The notes beneath the pieces were generated by a model. It made no database searches, was not told the origin of the DNA, and saw only the letters and a list, made by a program, of their open reading frames with translations. 64,000 nt of DNA from the NCBI GenBank assembly GCA_028706255.1, contig JAQWBS010000002.1, positions 186,001 through 250,000 of the forward strand, in the 5' to 3' direction. The position numbers and the translations under genes were made by a program. This DNA is from Alphaproteobacteria bacterium (GTDB lineage Bacteria > Pseudomonadota > Alphaproteobacteria > RF32 > CAG-239). Of the stretch, positions 3,404-19,752 are shown one piece after another; position 1 is the first letter of the stretch, and each line of letters begins with the position of its first letter.

Positions 3404-4633
3404 TCATTCGTTTTGATAATAAATTCTGTTGTCATAAATTTCTGCAGCTTCAAGACTACTTTCAATAATTCTATCTTTTCCAACACTCACAACATCTCCT
3501 GTCGCAGATGAAAAATTTGAAATCTGAGATAAAGACTTTAATAAGACATCACTACGTGGTCTAATTTTTTTATCAGTGCTTTCAAACGCAACAACAAGCA
3601 TTTTTACAGCATCATATAAATTTGGAGCACAAACAGGCAATGGTAAAACGCTAGCTTTAATAAACTTCTCTCTAAAGAGATAATCTCCTCGAGAAGAAAG
3701 CACATAAAGCGCCCCATTCATTGTTGTTTTATTAATTTCTCTCATCATATCAATATCAGTATATCTAAAGCTCAAAGCTTTACTATTAAGTTTTGAGGTG
3801 AAAATTCCACCCTCTCTTTGCCCCATTAATACCAAAACAGCTTCTGGCGTTTTTTCTGATAACTCACCAATTTCTTTTGAAAAATTCAATTGTCCTTCTT
3901 CAATTTCAAAAACAGACTGAACCACAAAATTTCTTTTCAATGCTTGTTTTTTAACTTCTTTTGCCAAAGACTTATATGGTTCTTGTTTCACATTCACAAT
4001 TGAGAAAATTCTAATATTATTTCTTTCAAGATTATCTAAAAAAGAATCTGCCTGCTTATTATAGCTCGGAAAGTGATTAAATGAATGTGATTTCTTTTCC
4101 AGAAAATGTTCGTTCCACGCACAAGCTATGTGTGGCAGTTTGTTTTTTTCAGCAATCTTGGCAACAATTTCCGCATCTTCATAAACCGACAACAATGCAT
4201 CAACATCTTTCACATCAACCAGCGTATAAGTGCTCATAAAGGTCTTTTCTTTACCACTGTCTTCAATGATGATTTCATATTTGAATTTGGTGTTTTCTGG
4301 GATTTCATTATATGCCATATAAAGTGCTGAACGCAACGCATCTCCTGTGATTTCTTTTTCACCTGAAAGAGGCAGGCTCACGCCAATCTTAATAACCTGC
4401 TTTTCTTTCAAAGATTTTCCAATATCTGGCAAACTTTTCTCTTGCGCCAGTTTTTTCACTCTCTTGCGTCCCTCAGACTTTGTGATGTTTCCTTTTTTCC
4501 CAAGGGCGATTTGATTGGTTGGAATTGATTTATCATATTGGATGAAGCTCTCTGAATTAATCAAATATATAATGATTGATATGACAATGAGGGTCATCAT
4601 AAGAATGATGCGACTGGTGGTTTTGTTAATCAT
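3404..4633 (-). CDS. Membrane-anchored periplasmic binding-protein-like protein (type 1, LivJ/PBP-activator fold)
   Basis: About 409 residues. The ATG at 4633 is preferred over the in-frame TTG at 4645 because it has GGATAAAAAG just upstream. One N-terminal transmembrane helix (about residues 8-25) has no lipobox cysteine, so the rest is probably a tethered periplasmic domain. From about residue 85 the pattern IKIGVSLPLSGEKEITGDAL matches the first strand of type-1 periplasmic binding folds (Peripla_BP_6), followed by alternating strands and helices. There is no ABC permease or ATPase beside it, so it may act as a sensor or as an LpoA-like activator of penicillin-binding proteins rather than in uptake. 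Ligand unknown. It is monocistronic and convergent with the pump operon. Confidence 0.7.
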   Translation of the reverse strand: MINKTTSRIILMMTLIVISIIIYLINSESFIQYDKSIPTNQIALGKKGNITKSEGRKRVKKLAQEKSLPDIGKSLKEKQVIKIGVSLPLSGEKEITGDALRSALYMAYNEIPENTKFKYEIIIEDSGKEKTFMSTYTLVDVKDVDALLSVYEDAEIVAKIAEKNKLPHIACAWNEHFLEKKSHSFNHFPSYNKQADSFLDNLERNNIRIFSIVNVKQEPYKSLAKEVKKQALKRNFVVQSVFEIEEGQLNFSKEIGELSEKTPEAVLVLMGQREGGIFTSKLNSKALSFRYTDIDMMREINKTTMNGALYVLSSRGDYLFREKFIKASVLPLPVCAPNLYDAVKMLVVAFESTDKKIRPRSDVLLKSLSQISNFSSATGDVVSVGKDRIIESSLEAAEIYDNRIYYQNE

Positions 4634-9355: not shown

Positions 9356-9461
9356 CAACAAAAATTTCATAATCTTTCTAGTAATTTTTTATTGAAAAAT
9401 ATAAAAAAGTTTTACGATAAATTGTATAATACTTTCTATACAAACTATAAGGAGTCGTGTT

Positions 9462-10505
9462 ATGAAGAAATCATATTTAACTGTTTTTGCTTGTTGCTTC
9501 TTTGTCTGTTTAAATATATTGCCTATTCACGACGCCGTTGCCGGCGTCTATTTTATTACCAAAACCACAGACAAAAATGATGGGGTCAGCAATAAACCTT
9601 GTCAAATGATGGGATATAAAGTAAAAGCTGAAGACTGTAAAAACGGCGAAGAAGCTTTTGAAAAATGCCCAAATGGAGATTATTACAAAGGCTGTGCTTG
9701 TAATACTTCTAAACTCCCTTATAACACTGCAAATTGTGCTGCACCTTTGGAACTCTCAGGAAATTCTTGTAATGATGAACAGTTTGAAAAATGTGAATGT
9801 AATGCCACAAAATATCCTTACACAACAGAAAACTGCAAGGGAAATAATGTTCCTGCTGGAAGTTTTTGTAAAGACTTAAATGATATCACCCATTATGAAA
9901 AATGTTCTTGCGCATCTTCATTTCCTTACACATCTTCAAATTGTTCTTCTCCAAAAATTTTAGGCGGAAACACTTGTCAAGACTCGTCCAATGTGACTTA
10001 TTACAAAACCTGTTCTTGCCCTTCAACTTATGTCACATGCAATTGTGGTGGCGAGGGAACTTCCTGCAATGACGGAACTCAGAAATATGCTTCTTGCAAA
10101 TCTTGCTGTACTGATACCTGCCCTTCAGGGGTTTTATCTTGTCCTATAGCTGGACAATATGGAAAATATGTTAGCCAAACGAGTTGTGGAAAAAGTTGCT
10201 ATCAATGCTATAACTACGTTGTTGAAGAATATTTGAGTGGTTACAATAGTAATCTTTGTTGTAATGAACCAAAAAAATGGGGAAGTAGCACACCTTGGGA
10301 TAGTTGTCATTATCTTACAGAACATAGAGGTACACAATTTACAACGATTGCACGTATTAGCTATAGAGGCACTGTAATAAGCACAAAAGAAGGAAGGCAG
10401 TATAGTGGAACAAGTAATGGTCCTTATGCTACGGAAAGTGAGTGTATTAGCAGTATGAAAAGCTTATGGTATCTTGATCGCTACATGGGATACTATTATG
10501 AATAA
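9462..10505 (+). CDS. Secreted cysteine-rich repeat protein, 347 aa
   Basis: Sec signal peptide at residues 1-27, with cleavage after AVA giving a mature GVYFITK start. The mature protein has about 32 cysteines. After an N-terminal module (PCQMMGY, then DC, then EKCP) come at least four repeats of about 33-36 residues with the pattern CxC-x4/6-(F/Y)PY-xxx-NC-x7-GxxC-x-(Y/F)xxC. The C-terminal 100 residues are different and Tyr/Ser-rich. Many disulfides are likely, so it is probably extracellular or on the outer surface. The gene at 17906 is a clear paralogue with the same signal-peptide start (MKKSY), the same GVYFITK mature end and the same SD context (AGGAG, then TCGTG before ATG). TATAAT at 9425-9430 may be its -10. 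No function is recognised. Confidence 0.8.
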   Translation: MKKSYLTVFACCFFVCLNILPIHDAVAGVYFITKTTDKNDGVSNKPCQMMGYKVKAEDCKNGEEAFEKCPNGDYYKGCACNTSKLPYNTANCAAPLELSGNSCNDEQFEKCECNATKYPYTTENCKGNNVPAGSFCKDLNDITHYEKCSCASSFPYTSSNCSSPKILGGNTCQDSSNVTYYKTCSCPSTYVTCNCGGEGTSCNDGTQKYASCKSCCTDTCPSGVLSCPIAGQYGKYVSQTSCGKSCYQCYNYVVEEYLSGYNSNLCCNEPKKWGSSTPWDSCHYLTEHRGTQFTTIARISYRGTVISTKEGRQYSGTSNGPYATESECISSMKSLWYLDRYMGYYYE

Positions 10506-10518
10506 TTAATTTTGTTAA

Positions 10519-10552
10519 TAAAAAAGCCCCTTCTTTTGGAGGGGCTTTTTTT
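10519..10552. terminator. Bidirectional rho-independent terminator
   Basis: AAAAGCCCCTTC / GGAGGGGCTTTT hairpin with flanking A- and T-runs, shared by the convergent cysteine-rich gene and the GH108-like gene. Confidence 0.85.
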
Positions 10553-12186
10553 TATGAATGTGTTTTTGATTTCTTAAACAGTTTTGCAAGGGTGAATGAT
10601 TTTTCTTCTTTTTGCTTCTGGATAATCTTCTCATAATGAGCAACGGAAATGGCTTGTGTTACCTCTTTGTCTACTTTAAAGCCATCAATATATCCTTCTG
10701 CCCGAGTAATAATTCCTGTAAATTCTTTTACACGTCCGTCTTTCATAAAAGCTAATCGTTCTTTGGCAAAGCTATCATAAAAAAGCTTAAGTTCCTTATC
10801 GTCACAGGAGTTGAGATAATTAACTTTTCCACTCCAAGATTTCGTCAGCTTTTTATCTGTTTTTTCATCTCGTTTTTTTTCAACAGAATCTAATGCTTTT
10901 TGCAAAAACTTTCTGAATGTTTTCGGTGTATGATTATAAGAAGCATCGAAAAGCATTTGTGATAAGCTCTCATTCTCAATGCGATGAGAATGGAACGACT
11001 CATAAAAATAGTCCATCACCAAAACAGCCTCTTTTTTCTTTAAATCTTTCACTTTTTTAGGAAGCTTACCATATTTCTCTGGAAACATATCTCTCAAGTT
11101 TTGCAACAAAGGTTCTGTCACGCCAAAATTTGTGGCTTGATCAATGACTGCAACTTTCTCACCATTTGCACGGAGTTTCTCTGCTTCTTTTTTAGTTGTT
11201 CCAAAGCCACCTTCTTTTTGGAACGTTTCGGTAATAATCCGTTCAAATCTGTCCTTACGATTAATTTCCAATTGAGCATTAAGCTTACTAAGGTCAAGCT
11301 TAGCGATATCTGGCTTAATATTTTCCAAGGCAATCTTTTTTGTTGCGGCAACTTTTTCTTGAGACTCAACCTTTCTGGACTGTTCTTGTGTTAGCTCTTT
11401 CTTTTTATTTAGCTTTTCTCTCACCTCAGCTTGTTTTTCACGATTAAGGTTTGCTTTTTCACTGGCTTCTTTTTTCTTTAGCTCTGCCGTAAAATCAGCT
11501 GTCTTTTCTTGCTTTTGCTGTTCAGGAACTTTGGTAACTGTGGTCACTTCGGCAATTTTTGGTTCAGGCATTTTTTCCTTGGCTTTATTTCCTCCAAAAG
11601 AAAGTGCTCCTAAAAGCGTTAAGCCTGCAGCGACGCCTAAAAGTTCTTTTCTTCTCTTAGCAAAAAAATCTAACCTTGTCTGTTCAATAATTTTTTGCTC
11701 TGCTTTTTCATCAACTTTTTGAACTGCCCCATTCAATTTTTGTTCAATTAAATTTTCTTCAATGATTTCATAAAGTTCCAAGGCATCCGCAATTGCCATA
11801 TCCACTTGCTCTTCATAAGAATAGTGACGATTTTTATAAGGAACAGGGATGTTGATTCCAGTAATGTTAACATATTGAGGGTTTTTGCCCTGACTGATAT
11901 ATTCTGCTTCAACCGACTTCACATAGGCTTCATCACAATCAAAGATGTCGTTAATGAAATTGTCAAAAGCACCATCAAGCGTTTTGCTATTTTTCACATA
12001 GCGACGAGGTAATAAAACAGAATCGTAAAACTGAGTTTTTTCATCATGTGGCATTTTCTCCAACATCATATCTGAATAGTGATATGAGCGTTCAGAAATG
12101 GCTTGGCAAAGCGTGTGAATTTTAACAGGGTTCTCTTTGTTTTGAGCATATTCACTAGCGAGATGTTCTTGGATATCAATATACAT
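10552..12186 (-). CDS. Membrane-anchored protein with GH108-like (putative muramidase) domain
   Basis: 544 residues in three parts. Residues 1-175 are soluble, acidic and unrecognised. One transmembrane helix lies at about 181-198 (LLGVAAGLTLLGALSFGG). A Lys/Glu-rich coiled coil covers about 230-300. Residues about 312-485 resemble the GH108 lysozyme-like family: an ETFQKEGGF segment with the expected catalytic Glu in EGG (325-327), NFGVTEPLL (353-361) matching the family's T-x-x-G-I-T element, LKKKEAVLVMDYFY (382-395), and a DASYNH...LQKAL segment. Topology would put this domain in the periplasm, acting on peptidoglycan. The GH108 call is by motif order only. Good SD (AAGGA). The next gene, divergently upstream, encodes an MliC-type lysozyme inhibitor. 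Confidence 0.6.
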   Translation of the reverse strand: MYIDIQEHLASEYAQNKENPVKIHTLCQAISERSYHYSDMMLEKMPHDEKTQFYDSVLLPRRYVKNSKTLDGAFDNFINDIFDCDEAYVKSVEAEYISQGKNPQYVNITGINIPVPYKNRHYSYEEQVDMAIADALELYEIIEENLIEQKLNGAVQKVDEKAEQKIIEQTRLDFFAKRRKELLGVAAGLTLLGALSFGGNKAKEKMPEPKIAEVTTVTKVPEQQKQEKTADFTAELKKKEASEKANLNREKQAEVREKLNKKKELTQEQSRKVESQEKVAATKKIALENIKPDIAKLDLSKLNAQLEINRKDRFERIITETFQKEGGFGTTKKEAEKLRANGEKVAVIDQATNFGVTEPLLQNLRDMFPEKYGKLPKKVKDLKKKEAVLVMDYFYESFHSHRIENESLSQMLFDASYNHTPKTFRKFLQKALDSVEKKRDEKTDKKLTKSWSGKVNYLNSCDDKELKLFYDSFAKERLAFMKDGRVKEFTGIITRAEGYIDGFKVDKEVTQAISVAHYEKIIQKQKEEKSFTLAKLFKKSKTHS

Positions 12187-13419: not shown

Positions 13420-13812
13420 ATGAAATTTTCTTTTTTGACCCTATTGTTTCTTTTTACTTTTTCCCTCATTGGAAAAGCAGATAATATTCAATGTGATGAC
13501 TATGGTGACTGTCTTGGTTATACAAATGATGGGCAGAAAATTATAATTCACACCGCAGATGGAGAAACAAGAGGCTATATTGGCGAACAAAAAGTTGATT
13601 TATATAAAGACAGCGAAGGCAACGTAACGGGTTATGTTGGAAATCAGCGGGTGAATGCAAACATCAACCAAGAAGGGGATATCACGGGTTTTGCCGGCAG
13701 TGATAATGTGAACATTCAAGCGGATGACTTAGGGCTTCTCCATGGACGCATTGGAAACAACGGCATCAATGCTTATGAAAGCGACAGCGGTGAAATTTCC
13801 ACAAGCTATTAA
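13420..13812 (+). CDS. Secreted 19-residue-repeat protein, 130 aa
   Basis: Signal peptide at residues 1-20 (FSLIGKA, then DNIQ). Residues 33-127 are five tandem repeats of exactly 19 residues with the pattern G-(Y/F/R)-x-G-x3-(V/I)-x7-G-x-(V/I/T)-x. Each begins with Gly-aromatic and ends with an acidic turn. Such a short regular period suggests a beta-solenoid or beta-roll. Two cysteines (25 and 31) precede the repeats. Good SD (TAGGAG). No family is recognised. The stop lies six bases from the stop of convergent pntB and no terminator lies between them. Confidence 0.7.
   Translation: MKFSFLTLLFLFTFSLIGKADNIQCDDYGDCLGYTNDGQKIIIHTADGETRGYIGEQKVDLYKDSEGNVTGYVGNQRVNANINQEGDITGFAGSDNVNIQADDLGLLHGRIGNNGINAYESDSGEISTSY
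13516..13800 (+). repeat. Five in-frame 57-bp coding repeats
   Basis: The five 19-codon units of the secreted repeat protein (codons 33-51, 52-70, 71-89, 90-108 and 109-127). They are conserved as protein pattern but diverged at DNA level, so this is an old duplication and not a recent slippage array. Confidence 0.7.
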
Positions 13813-17813: not shown

Positions 17814-17905
17814 TTTCGCGACTCATTTCTTCTTGCAAAAAAAAAAAGAGGATTATCATTGGTTGTATAGGAAGATTTTTTCTTATAACTAGGAGGATTC
17901 GTGCC

Positions 17906-18604
17906 ATGAAGAAGTCATATTTCATCTTTTTGGGAGCTTTTTTGCTTTTTTGTTCAAGCTTCACGTTAACTTACAATGCCTTCGCTGGTGTTTATTTCAT
18001 TACTAAACCTCAAGAAAATGTTGTAGGAGTCAGCAATAAACCCTGCCAATTAATGGGTTATATTTATGACAGTTCAAATTGTGGAAATGGAAAATCACTC
18101 ATCCAAAAATGTCCAACTGGAAACACTTACAGATTCTGCAAATGCAACTTTTCTCTTTATCCATATACAATCTTAAACTGTACTTCAGAAGAAGGCAAAA
18201 AGCTTGGCGGAAATGTCTGTGAAAATATCTATTATGAAACCTGTAAATGTGATGATAAGTATCAATATGACCTCTCAAATTGTCTTCCCCCTAAAATTTT
18301 AAGAGGGGAATCTTGTGATGAAAAATATACTGAGTGCATTTGCCCATCTGAATATGACAAAATTTGCACAGGAAATCTCGTTGGGGTTGGAACAGCGTGT
18401 GATGGGAAATATCAAAGTTGCCAATGTGGACCAGAATTTATGGAATGTGAATATGGTGGAGCAACGGGGGCAGAATCATGTACAGATGATTATGGCACAA
18501 AATATTCTAGTTGCAAAGGCAAACCTCAAACTTGCCCAACAGGACAAGTTCCATTGCAAACTTGGTGGTGTAGCTTTATTAATTGCTCAAACCCTACAAA
18601 ATAA
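17906..18604 (+). CDS. Secreted cysteine-rich repeat protein, 232 aa (paralogue of the gene at 9462)
   Basis: Signal peptide at residues 1-27 (cleavage after AFA), then the mature start GVYFITK shared with the 347-residue protein. Next are the same N-terminal module (PCQLMGY, a following Cys, then QKCP) and two or three repeats with YPY and NC spacing similar to the paralogue. The C-terminus is shorter and ends without the paralogue's Tyr-rich tail. About 26 mature cysteines suggest a disulfide-rich exported protein. The 5' context is also alike: AGGAGG, then TTCGTG and ATGAAGAA(A/G)TCATAT. It lies 27 bases before the beta-helix-like gene, suggesting an operon. Confidence 0.78.
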   Translation: MKKSYFIFLGAFLLFCSSFTLTYNAFAGVYFITKPQENVVGVSNKPCQLMGYIYDSSNCGNGKSLIQKCPTGNTYRFCKCNFSLYPYTILNCTSEEGKKLGGNVCENIYYETCKCDDKYQYDLSNCLPPKILRGESCDEKYTECICPSEYDKICTGNLVGVGTACDGKYQSCQCGPEFMECEYGGATGAESCTDDYGTKYSSCKGKPQTCPTGQVPLQTWWCSFINCSNPTK

Positions 18605-18631
18605 TTACAACTTTTCTATGGAGTAAAACTG

Positions 18632-19708
18632 ATGTCAAATTATTTAAAATATTTTAGTATCTTATCTATCTCTCTATTTGCCCTAACAAAAACAGGGTTA
18701 GCAGCTGAGCAAACTTGTGTCACGACATTGACTTGCGAAGAACTTGGCTATACCAAAAAAGTGTCAGACTGTCTTGATGGAAGCGTTAAGTGTCCTCTAG
18801 ATATAAACAAGGTTTTTTGCCAAGGTTCCAGTGGGTTATTTTACAGTGTTAGCGGAACAAGTGGTGTGAGTCTTAAAATTACAGCTCTGAGAGATTTTTA
18901 TGGGGTTAAGCGAGGAGAAAAAGGAGGAACCATTAAATATGAAACGAATTTAGATCAAACAGGTGCTTGGATTACGGAGGGTGTTGGTGTTGGAGGTGAA
19001 GCGTATGTCTCTGGGCAAGCTAGAGTAGAAGTAGCAGAGCCATATGCAAGTGGTGGTGGGATCCAAATTTCTGAACAAGCAAGAATATATGGCAATGCAA
19101 AGATAAAAGTGACCTCAAACTACATGTATATTCAAGGCGAAAGCGAACTATATGATAATGCCACAGTTATTAATACAAATGTATATGGTGCAAAAATTTA
19201 TGGCAATGCCTATATCGAAGGTATATCAACAGCTTCCTCATTCTTATACTCAAATGTCTCTGTTTTTGGAGATAGCAAGCTCTATAATGTTAGTATGACT
19301 GAAGGTGGAAATGGTCAAGTAAAAATATATGGAAATAGTGATCTTAAAACCGTTTCTCTTCAAAAAGCTGCAGCAGACATTTATGACAGCTCTCTAGCGA
19401 ATTTACAGCTTGTCGGTTGTGGACCAATAAAGATACACAGCTCAACCATTGAAGTACCATCAGGTTCTCAAGTTGTTAGTAGAGTAAAATTTAATTTAAG
19501 TAGCAGTGGAAGCTGTTCTTCTGTTGAAAGAGAAATTAAAAATGCAACAATAAAAGTCCTTGGAAATAAGAGTGTAACTTTTAAGGAAACTGTTAAATCT
19601 ATCACAGGGAATATTACAATTGATACAACGAATACAGCAGCAGCATTAATTTATTTTTGTAAAGAGAGCTATGATTCCGGAACTTACACAGCAGGTGATT
19701 GCTACTAA
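18632..19708 (+). CDS. Secreted beta-helix-like protein with cysteine-rich N-terminal module, 358 aa
   Basis: Signal peptide at about residues 1-24. The next 45 residues have the same module as the two cysteine-rich proteins in simpler form: TCEELGY, then DC and KCP. Residues about 105-270 are Gly/Asn-rich with hexapeptide-like units such as ISEQARIYGNAKI, IQGESELYDNATV, AKIYGNAYIEG, VFGDSKLYNV and VKIYGNSDL. These predict a right- or left-handed beta-helix, as in surface or adhesin-like proteins. Probably exported with, and physically linked to, the preceding cysteine-rich protein. Family not known to me. Confidence 0.72.
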   Translation: MSNYLKYFSILSISLFALTKTGLAAEQTCVTTLTCEELGYTKKVSDCLDGSVKCPLDINKVFCQGSSGLFYSVSGTSGVSLKITALRDFYGVKRGEKGGTIKYETNLDQTGAWITEGVGVGGEAYVSGQARVEVAEPYASGGGIQISEQARIYGNAKIKVTSNYMYIQGESELYDNATVINTNVYGAKIYGNAYIEGISTASSFLYSNVSVFGDSKLYNVSMTEGGNGQVKIYGNSDLKTVSLQKAAADIYDSSLANLQLVGCGPIKIHSSTIEVPSGSQVVSRVKFNLSSSGSCSSVEREIKNATIKVLGNKSVTFKETVKSITGNITIDTTNTAAALIYFCKESYDSGTYTAGDCY

Positions 19709-19721
19709 AACTTATCCCTCT

Positions 19722-19752
19722 AAAAAAGCCTCGTTCAACGAGGCTTTTTTTA
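19722..19752. terminator. Bidirectional rho-independent terminator
   Basis: AAAAAAGCCTCGTT / AACGAGGCTTTTTT near-perfect hairpin between the beta-helix gene and the convergent gapR gene. Confidence 0.88.

Follow-up and report, generated by a model that had tools for sequence, protein, structure and literature searches.

A dispersed family of signal-bearing, cysteine-rich repeat proteins with mosaic copies in an alphaproteobacterial genome

From sequence comparison, the gene at position 9462 is one copy of a family of about 20 signal-bearing, very cysteine-rich proteins scattered through a small genome. We consider it moderately probable that the family forms a variable surface-display repertoire of binding proteins, likely adhesive, whose copies are shuffled by recombination and whose promoter A-tracts, by prediction, switch expression on or off. 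The window analyzed is a stretch of 64,000 nt from a draft assembly of 1.62 Mb, here called G000. Cysteine-rich repeat genes like 9462 are referred to as the A family and shorter related genes like 18632 as the B family; f1 denotes the taxonomic family of G000, and G001 is a genome of the same genus. Features of the window are listed in Table 1.

Table 1. Features of the two gene families in the window (window coordinates)
Feature	Position	Strand	Details
A-family gene 9462	9462..10505	+	Sec-type signal, GVYFITK start, CxxMGY...KCP module, tandem Cys repeats, own C-terminal part
Putative -10-like hexamer TATAAT	9425..9430	+	read from the sequence and the upstream alignment; the 9462 copy has no long A-tract
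Conversion tract in 9462	9801..10052	+	252-bp stretch identical to paralogue G000:C3:49611, with diverged flanks; paralogue comparison
C-terminal part of the 9462 protein, past the family-shared repeat region	10098..10505	+	low model confidence
Putative promoter of 17906	17833..17859	+	TTGCAA, 15-nt spacer with most of the A-tract, TATCAT; hexamers inferred, conserved among paralogues
Run of 11 A	17837..17847	+	no other A/T run in the window reaches 9, and no G/C run reaches 7
A-family gene 17906	17906..18604	+	232 aa, 24 Cys; sequence comparison
B-family gene 18632	18632..19708	+	signal, short Cys module, beta-solenoid-like C-terminal part; 27 bp behind 17906
B cysteine module	18734..18820	+	C-x2-LGY...C...KCP...C; profile comparison
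Terminator-like hairpin behind the 17906-18632 pair	19722..19750	+	1 found vs 1.0 expected in shuffles, so weak alone

The 9462 ORF encodes 347 aa with 35 cysteines, 32 of which fall in the 320 residues past the Sec-type signal, and it matches itself with peaks at shifts of 36, 23, and 33 residues. The original prediction of a cysteine-rich mature chain built from repeats of about 33–36 residues behind such a signal is therefore real. Cysteine makes up 10.1% of this protein and 10.3% of the 17906 product, against a median of 0.97% over 59 non-overlapping window ORFs and a next highest value of 3.3%. The AlphaFold2 model of 9462 has high pLDDT across residues 51–210, with 10-residue block means of 87–95, and 20 of the 21 cysteines that 9462 has in residues 47–212 are the same in all 10 aligned copies.

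Two diverged family members had been proposed nearby. One of them, 17906, is indeed a paralogue, 38% identical at E 1e-29; the other, 18632, is more than a diverged copy. It belongs to the second family and has only its short N-terminal module in common with the A family (E 1.4e-5 over 31 columns at 80% probability in a profile-profile comparison); its predicted structure is weak (pLDDT 52), and its fold matches all have E >1, several beta-solenoids being among them, and are not taken as proof. The reported likeness of 9462 and 17906 around their start codons also held up, as it belongs to a 5′ DNA block from about −112 to +150 that includes a promoter-like region, the ribosome site, the signal, and the first module. 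Most copies are far more alike there than elsewhere; those at C5:5.6k and C11:272k do not have the block in common at the DNA level.

A single protein query found 19 places in G000, which rules out a local family of three genes. The A profile gave 22 matches, counted as 15 in-contig loci and 4 matches at contig ends, and the B family has 7 genes. The earlier reading was thus right about the kind of family and too small in scope, having missed the roughly 20 copies, the poly-A block, the pairing of A and B genes, and the mosaics described below. Reading frames are open at 12 of the 15 in-contig A loci and broken at three (C8:100.6k, C8:48.7–49.3k, and C12:72.3k). The assembly itself breaks on the A family: the right ends of contigs C3, C7, and C12 and the left end of C5 lie just past the family upstream block, and contigs C3, C11, and C16 begin within A-family coding sequence. 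The last part of C7 and the first part of C11 have 110 identical bases in common and are probably one gene, which we left unjoined.

Searches of Pfam, NCBIfam, and PDB, by sequence and by fold, returned no match for the cysteine-repeat region, bearing out the view of a lineage-specific, secreted-type family without a named match; profile searches found homologues outside G000. A viral fold library yielded nothing significant (best E 0.092). Matches of the B module to hepsin and factor XI were dismissed at E 0.13–1.2. The open-licence literature, searched on the taxon and the family, held no paper on either family, an absence that is not proof, and PMC8144416 gave no hit for Alphaproteobacteria, cysteine, multiple targets, Lcl, DUF1566, or CAG.

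Both families were confined to f1 in our surveys. The A profile matched 20 of 55 relatives, all in f1, and none of the 24 outside it; the B profile, built from G000 alone, also matched 20 of the 55, again all in f1. Against 385 genomes of the class, the B profile matched five, every one in f1, and in a survey of 152 f1 genomes, where a count of 40 per genome means at least 40, it matched 89 genomes from 14 of 16 genera. B-module matches reached at least 62 in G005 (from 112 of 117 candidates), 63 in G019, and 55 in G023; these are profile matches and not gene counts, as some genes contain two modules. G005 and G019 thus carry more than 60 B-module matches in genomes of 1.5–1.6 Mb, and in the loci fetched from them no B gene is preceded by an A gene. 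When proteins were searched with A-type sequences, 7 came back, 6 of them apparently from G000 itself; an alignment of the B module and Lcl_C brought back 505, with no name on any among the 120 matches listed.

In G000, five of the seven B genes stand directly behind an A gene, as 18632 does behind 17906; the sixth follows another B gene and the seventh neither. For the relatives, we counted B genes directly preceded by a gene with 8–14% cysteine in loci picked non-randomly from profile matches; the A profile matches some of these front genes and not all. Such a gene was present before 1/1 B genes in G002, 1/1 in G009, 2/2 in G026, 1/3 in G010, 3/5 in G011 (the remaining two begin 57 bp away from the end of a contig), 2/4 in G024 (the others are behind a B gene), and 2/3 in G030 (the other is behind a B gene). 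It was rare in G028 (1/8) and absent in G005 (0/8) and G019 (0/5). That the fetched B genes of these last three genomes mostly lack a preceding A gene makes an obligatory joint action of A and B less likely.

The C-terminal ends, here called tips, are of several kinds. Those of A-type proteins are solenoid-like, pectate-lyase-like (Pectate_lyase_5 in the L077 protein, 25.5 against a cut-off of 24.3), or Lcl_C below cut-off, and some A proteins have a B-like module at the end. Tips of B proteins are Lcl_C, phage Collar, or solenoid-like. Among relatives, Lcl_C scores over the Pfam cut-off of 34.9 at L123 (36.7) and L111 (42.8) and below it at L080, L082, L084, L085 (two ORFs), and L128; the window proteins 9462, 17906, and 18632 have no match to Lcl_C (PF07603). 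At locus L122 (G024:C20:77500-84500), an A gene is followed by three consecutive B genes with phage tail Collar tips, all three scoring over the cut-off of 24 (65.4, 56.6, and 34.2). Many tips, including that of 9462, matched no domain searched.

Within G000, solenoid-like tips occur in both A and B genes, and of six that were aligned, all but 18632 end in a similar C...YGC stretch. The tips of 18632 and of the A genes C10 and C12:36601 have solenoid-type repeats in common with the YdcK family (PF18836, NF040481). The NCBIfam YdcK model matched 18632 with E 2.4e-8 (33.3 bits) and L017 with 36.6 bits, against a cut-off of 350; all scores are below cut-offs, and here the repeats stand behind a signal and a cysteine module. 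The relatives' B genes resemble Legionella Lcl, which has an Lcl_C/DUF1566 head, in placing a C-terminal Lcl_C behind another module. They differ in having a cysteine module where Lcl has a collagen-like N-terminus and in their many paralogues, and the window genes have other tips. According to PMC11162425, the Lcl head domain at the end of the stalk binds host glycosaminoglycans.

The A copies of G000 are mosaics. In successive 120-column windows, identity between 9462 and C3:49611 runs from 62–75% in the first two to 89–92% in the next two and 99–100% in the two after that, then falls to 88–91%, and the synonymous difference along the gene is 0.72, 0.48, 0.08, 0.00, 0.02, 0.20, 0.35, 0.65, and 0.75. 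The longest stretch of identity spans 168 of 439 polymorphic sites, a length that none of 300 permutations reached, and the tract lies inside contigs in both copies. The copy at the start of C11 equals 17906 over 40 codons (0/24 synonymous sites differ) and then the C11:23615 copy over 120 codons (1/72.7 differ), and thereafter it resembles neither. Two of the broken copies, C8:48.7k and C12:72.3k, are 97.4% alike over 539 bp and 82% at the 5′ end. Near-identical tracts free of synonymous change thus lie inside diverged paralogues, the signature of gene conversion between dispersed copies. Because the draft is broken inside the A family, mosaics at contig ends could be assembly errors.

A second feature of the copies is an A-tract in the 5′ block. 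At nine of the 15 in-contig A loci, the block contains CTTGC, a run of 11–14 A's, and ATTATCAT, all upstream of the ribosome site; the run is absent at 9462, C8:48.7k, C12:72.3k, C5:5.6k, C11:272k, and C7:17.4k. Runs of at least 11 A number 16 in G000, of which 13 are in the A-family promoter-like block (the nine in-contig loci plus four contig-end copies) and three elsewhere. Tract length varies from 11 to 14 between paralogues of one assembly, in otherwise near-identical blocks. At 17906, a promoter scan with 16–18 nt spacers listed nothing, the 15-nt spacer being outside its range, and the spacing may be 1–2 bases shorter than is usual for sigma-70. The six loci without a tract, 9462 among them, count against A-tract switching. 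In the 200 bp upstream of the four A genes of G001, no A run exceeds 7; switching would thus be particular to the species of G000 and not to the family.

PMC10502178 describes switching of the vlp genes of Mycoplasma hyorhinis through indels in a promoter A-tract, and the Vlp lipoproteins and those A proteins whose genes have a tract are alike as paralogous, presumably exported proteins with an A-tract in the promoter-like region. The differences are considerable: Vlp are lipoproteins with size-variable repeats, whereas the A proteins have a Sec-type signal and cysteine repeats, and in G000 the loci are dispersed, the tract is missing from six of the 15 in-contig loci, and switching is only predicted.

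In two relatives, tips of these families are targets of diversity-generating retroelements (DGRs). RVT_1 matched in 8 of 14 f1 genomes searched, with no match in G000, G001, G009, G013, G019, and G030. As G000 has no match to the reverse transcriptase family searched, we would not expect variation by retroelements there, and a retroelement is ruled out as the source of variation in the window. In G026, three templates near the RT gene (element L178, G026:C14:27500-34500; templates near 3623–3742, 3890–4007, and 4158–4275) match 13 of 27 compared ORF 3′ ends, the targets being B and A tips, one of them in the A-type protein L085. With one match retained per query, that of highest adenine share, 219 of 306 mismatches were at template adenines (A content 0.31–0.36) and 20 at target adenines. 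Of the other query ORFs, 7 matched nothing and 7 matched other places; the latter served as controls and were unbiased, with 101 of 463 mismatches at adenines on the RT-locus side and 114 on the query side. The translated templates have Asn runs at the variable sites, WSSSENNNNN(N)AW..NNNN(N)KNNNN(N)RVR.

In G002, 14/15 and 11/13 mismatches were at template adenines. G011 gave only a 32-bp match at a contig start, with both mismatches at adenines and no full template; G010 has the RT motif and no template match among the 3′ ends tried; and 3′ ends from G005, which has one RT, and from G024 and G028 did not match their own RT loci. Nor was a full template matched in G023, for which no suitable 3′ end was available. 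The GxxxSQ motif is used as a criterion for DGR-type RTs. For three of four RT proteins, NCBIfam returned group II intron, retron, and defence RT matches, all below cut-off, and no DGR-type name. As in DGR target proteins with C-type-lectin-type tips, template and target differ adenine-specifically at 3′ ends in G026 and G002; unlike those systems, the element is not in the window's genome, a cysteine module stands in front, and three templates serve 13 ends in G026. Many targets per genome are not new in themselves, given that Thiohalocapsa PB-PSB1 has nine loci and 15 targets according to PMC10907252. This adenine-specific variation, seen in relatives only, is the strongest evidence that the tip may be the recognition end.

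We also looked at how such proteins could be folded and exported. DsbA was found in 30 of the 31 f1 genomes searched, the one without a match being 59% complete. DsbB and VKOR were found in none of the 31, by profile searches that could miss a divergent oxidase, and DsbB was present in 21 of 23 members of the class from other orders. The suggested co-occurrence with disulfide oxidases thus failed, DsbB and VKOR being absent although DsbA is present, and on these searches we reject an expansion tied to either oxidase. Visual inspection of the ORFs next to the two dsbA genes of G000 brought out no obvious oxidase candidate. With DsbB and VKOR missing, we deduce disulfide formation from the cysteine pattern and DsbA. 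As for export, a secretin had exactly one match over cut-off in each of nine f1 genomes searched; the locus in G000 (L166, G000:C11:430000-449000) includes prepilin-like ORFs (GRSMVEMLAVLAIVGILS), presumably belongs to a cluster of type IV pilus kind, and is a possible export route. A surface location of the A and B proteins is plausible from their sequences.

We propose that after Sec export and disulfide formation, the cysteine repeats would serve as a stalk presenting a ligand-binding tip at the outer membrane or beyond it, with A and B of one operon acting together. Slippage in the A-tract would alter promoter spacing and with it the subset of copies made, and gene conversion would shift repeat and tip blocks between copies, broken ones included. 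The likely benefit would be varied attachment, or escape from phages, rivals, or host recognition. Giardia variant surface proteins are also a cysteine-rich variable surface family; being eukaryotic and having different repeats, they resemble the A family as an idea only.

We weighed three other explanations. We think it unlikely that these are structural envelope or matrix proteins, with cysteine repeats cross-linked into a disulfide coat or filament, ordinary gene conversion, no switching, and the A-tract as an UP-type promoter booster. High cysteine content would suit a cross-linked layer, many copies have one upstream block and one repeat region in common, and A-tracts can raise promoter strength without slippage. 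The copies are most unlike one another in their C-terminal parts, and relatives carry unrelated tip domains, neither of which would be expected of coat subunits; both the 11–14 variation in tract length and the hypermutation aimed at the tip in two relatives argue against this view. The matrix role suggested in the original prediction found no support.

It seems less likely still that the proteins are periplasmic or secreted decoys or antigen sensors against microbes or phages rather than adhesins. Variable tips would suit the recognition of changing phage proteins, and PMC10907252 proposes retroelement targets elsewhere as antigen sensors in phage defence. Against this, the A and B proteins scanned contain no NTPase, effector, or defence domain over the Pfam cut-off, and, being signal-bearing, they are not cytoplasmic sensors. 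None of nine A or B proteins matched PADLOC-DB, which rules out a defence protein of that kind. The decay of a once useful family whose spread is now neutral, its conversion and broken copies being side effects of the repeats, is very improbable: it can point to the three broken frames, and it has to face the 12 open ones, the invariant cysteines, the persistence of B modules across f1, and a pN below pS in every 40-codon window of three diverged-copy comparisons (17906 vs C11:23615, 17906 vs C10, and 9462 vs C12:36601), the exception being one 9462/C3 window inside the conversion tract (pN 0.04, pS 0.02).

Returning to the variable-display reading, we tentatively extend it, with well under even confidence, to a lineage-wide disulfide-rich display scaffold that would be a bacterial counterpart of receptor repertoires. 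Signal, promoter, and cysteine rod would be fixed, unrelated heads would be swapped, and diversification would be species-specific: in some species, retroelements would hypermutate a dozen heads in trans, using three templates, and in the window's species gene conversion and A-tract switching would do the work. An unknown or small-molecule oxidant would recharge DsbA in place of DsbB or VKOR. One clostridial DsbA can be recycled by small-molecule oxidants, according to PMC12453122. If true, this would be an undescribed surface-protein family, its B module present in most genera of an uncultured taxon, in which three known routes (promoter slippage, gene conversion, and retroelements) diversify one scaffold in related species. 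It also raises the question of how DsbA stays oxidised without a recognised DsbB or VKOR in a taxon with up to 63 cysteine-module matches per genome.

Two neighbors of these genes in the window deserve mention. At 13420-13812 (+) lies a gene for a small protein that has a signal and, by eye, a repeating unit of about 22 residues, with no family match over cut-off. Convergent to 9462, at 10552-12186 (−), a gene encodes a 544-aa protein with a Glycosyl hydrolase 108-like domain (23.0 bits against a cut-off of 21.2).
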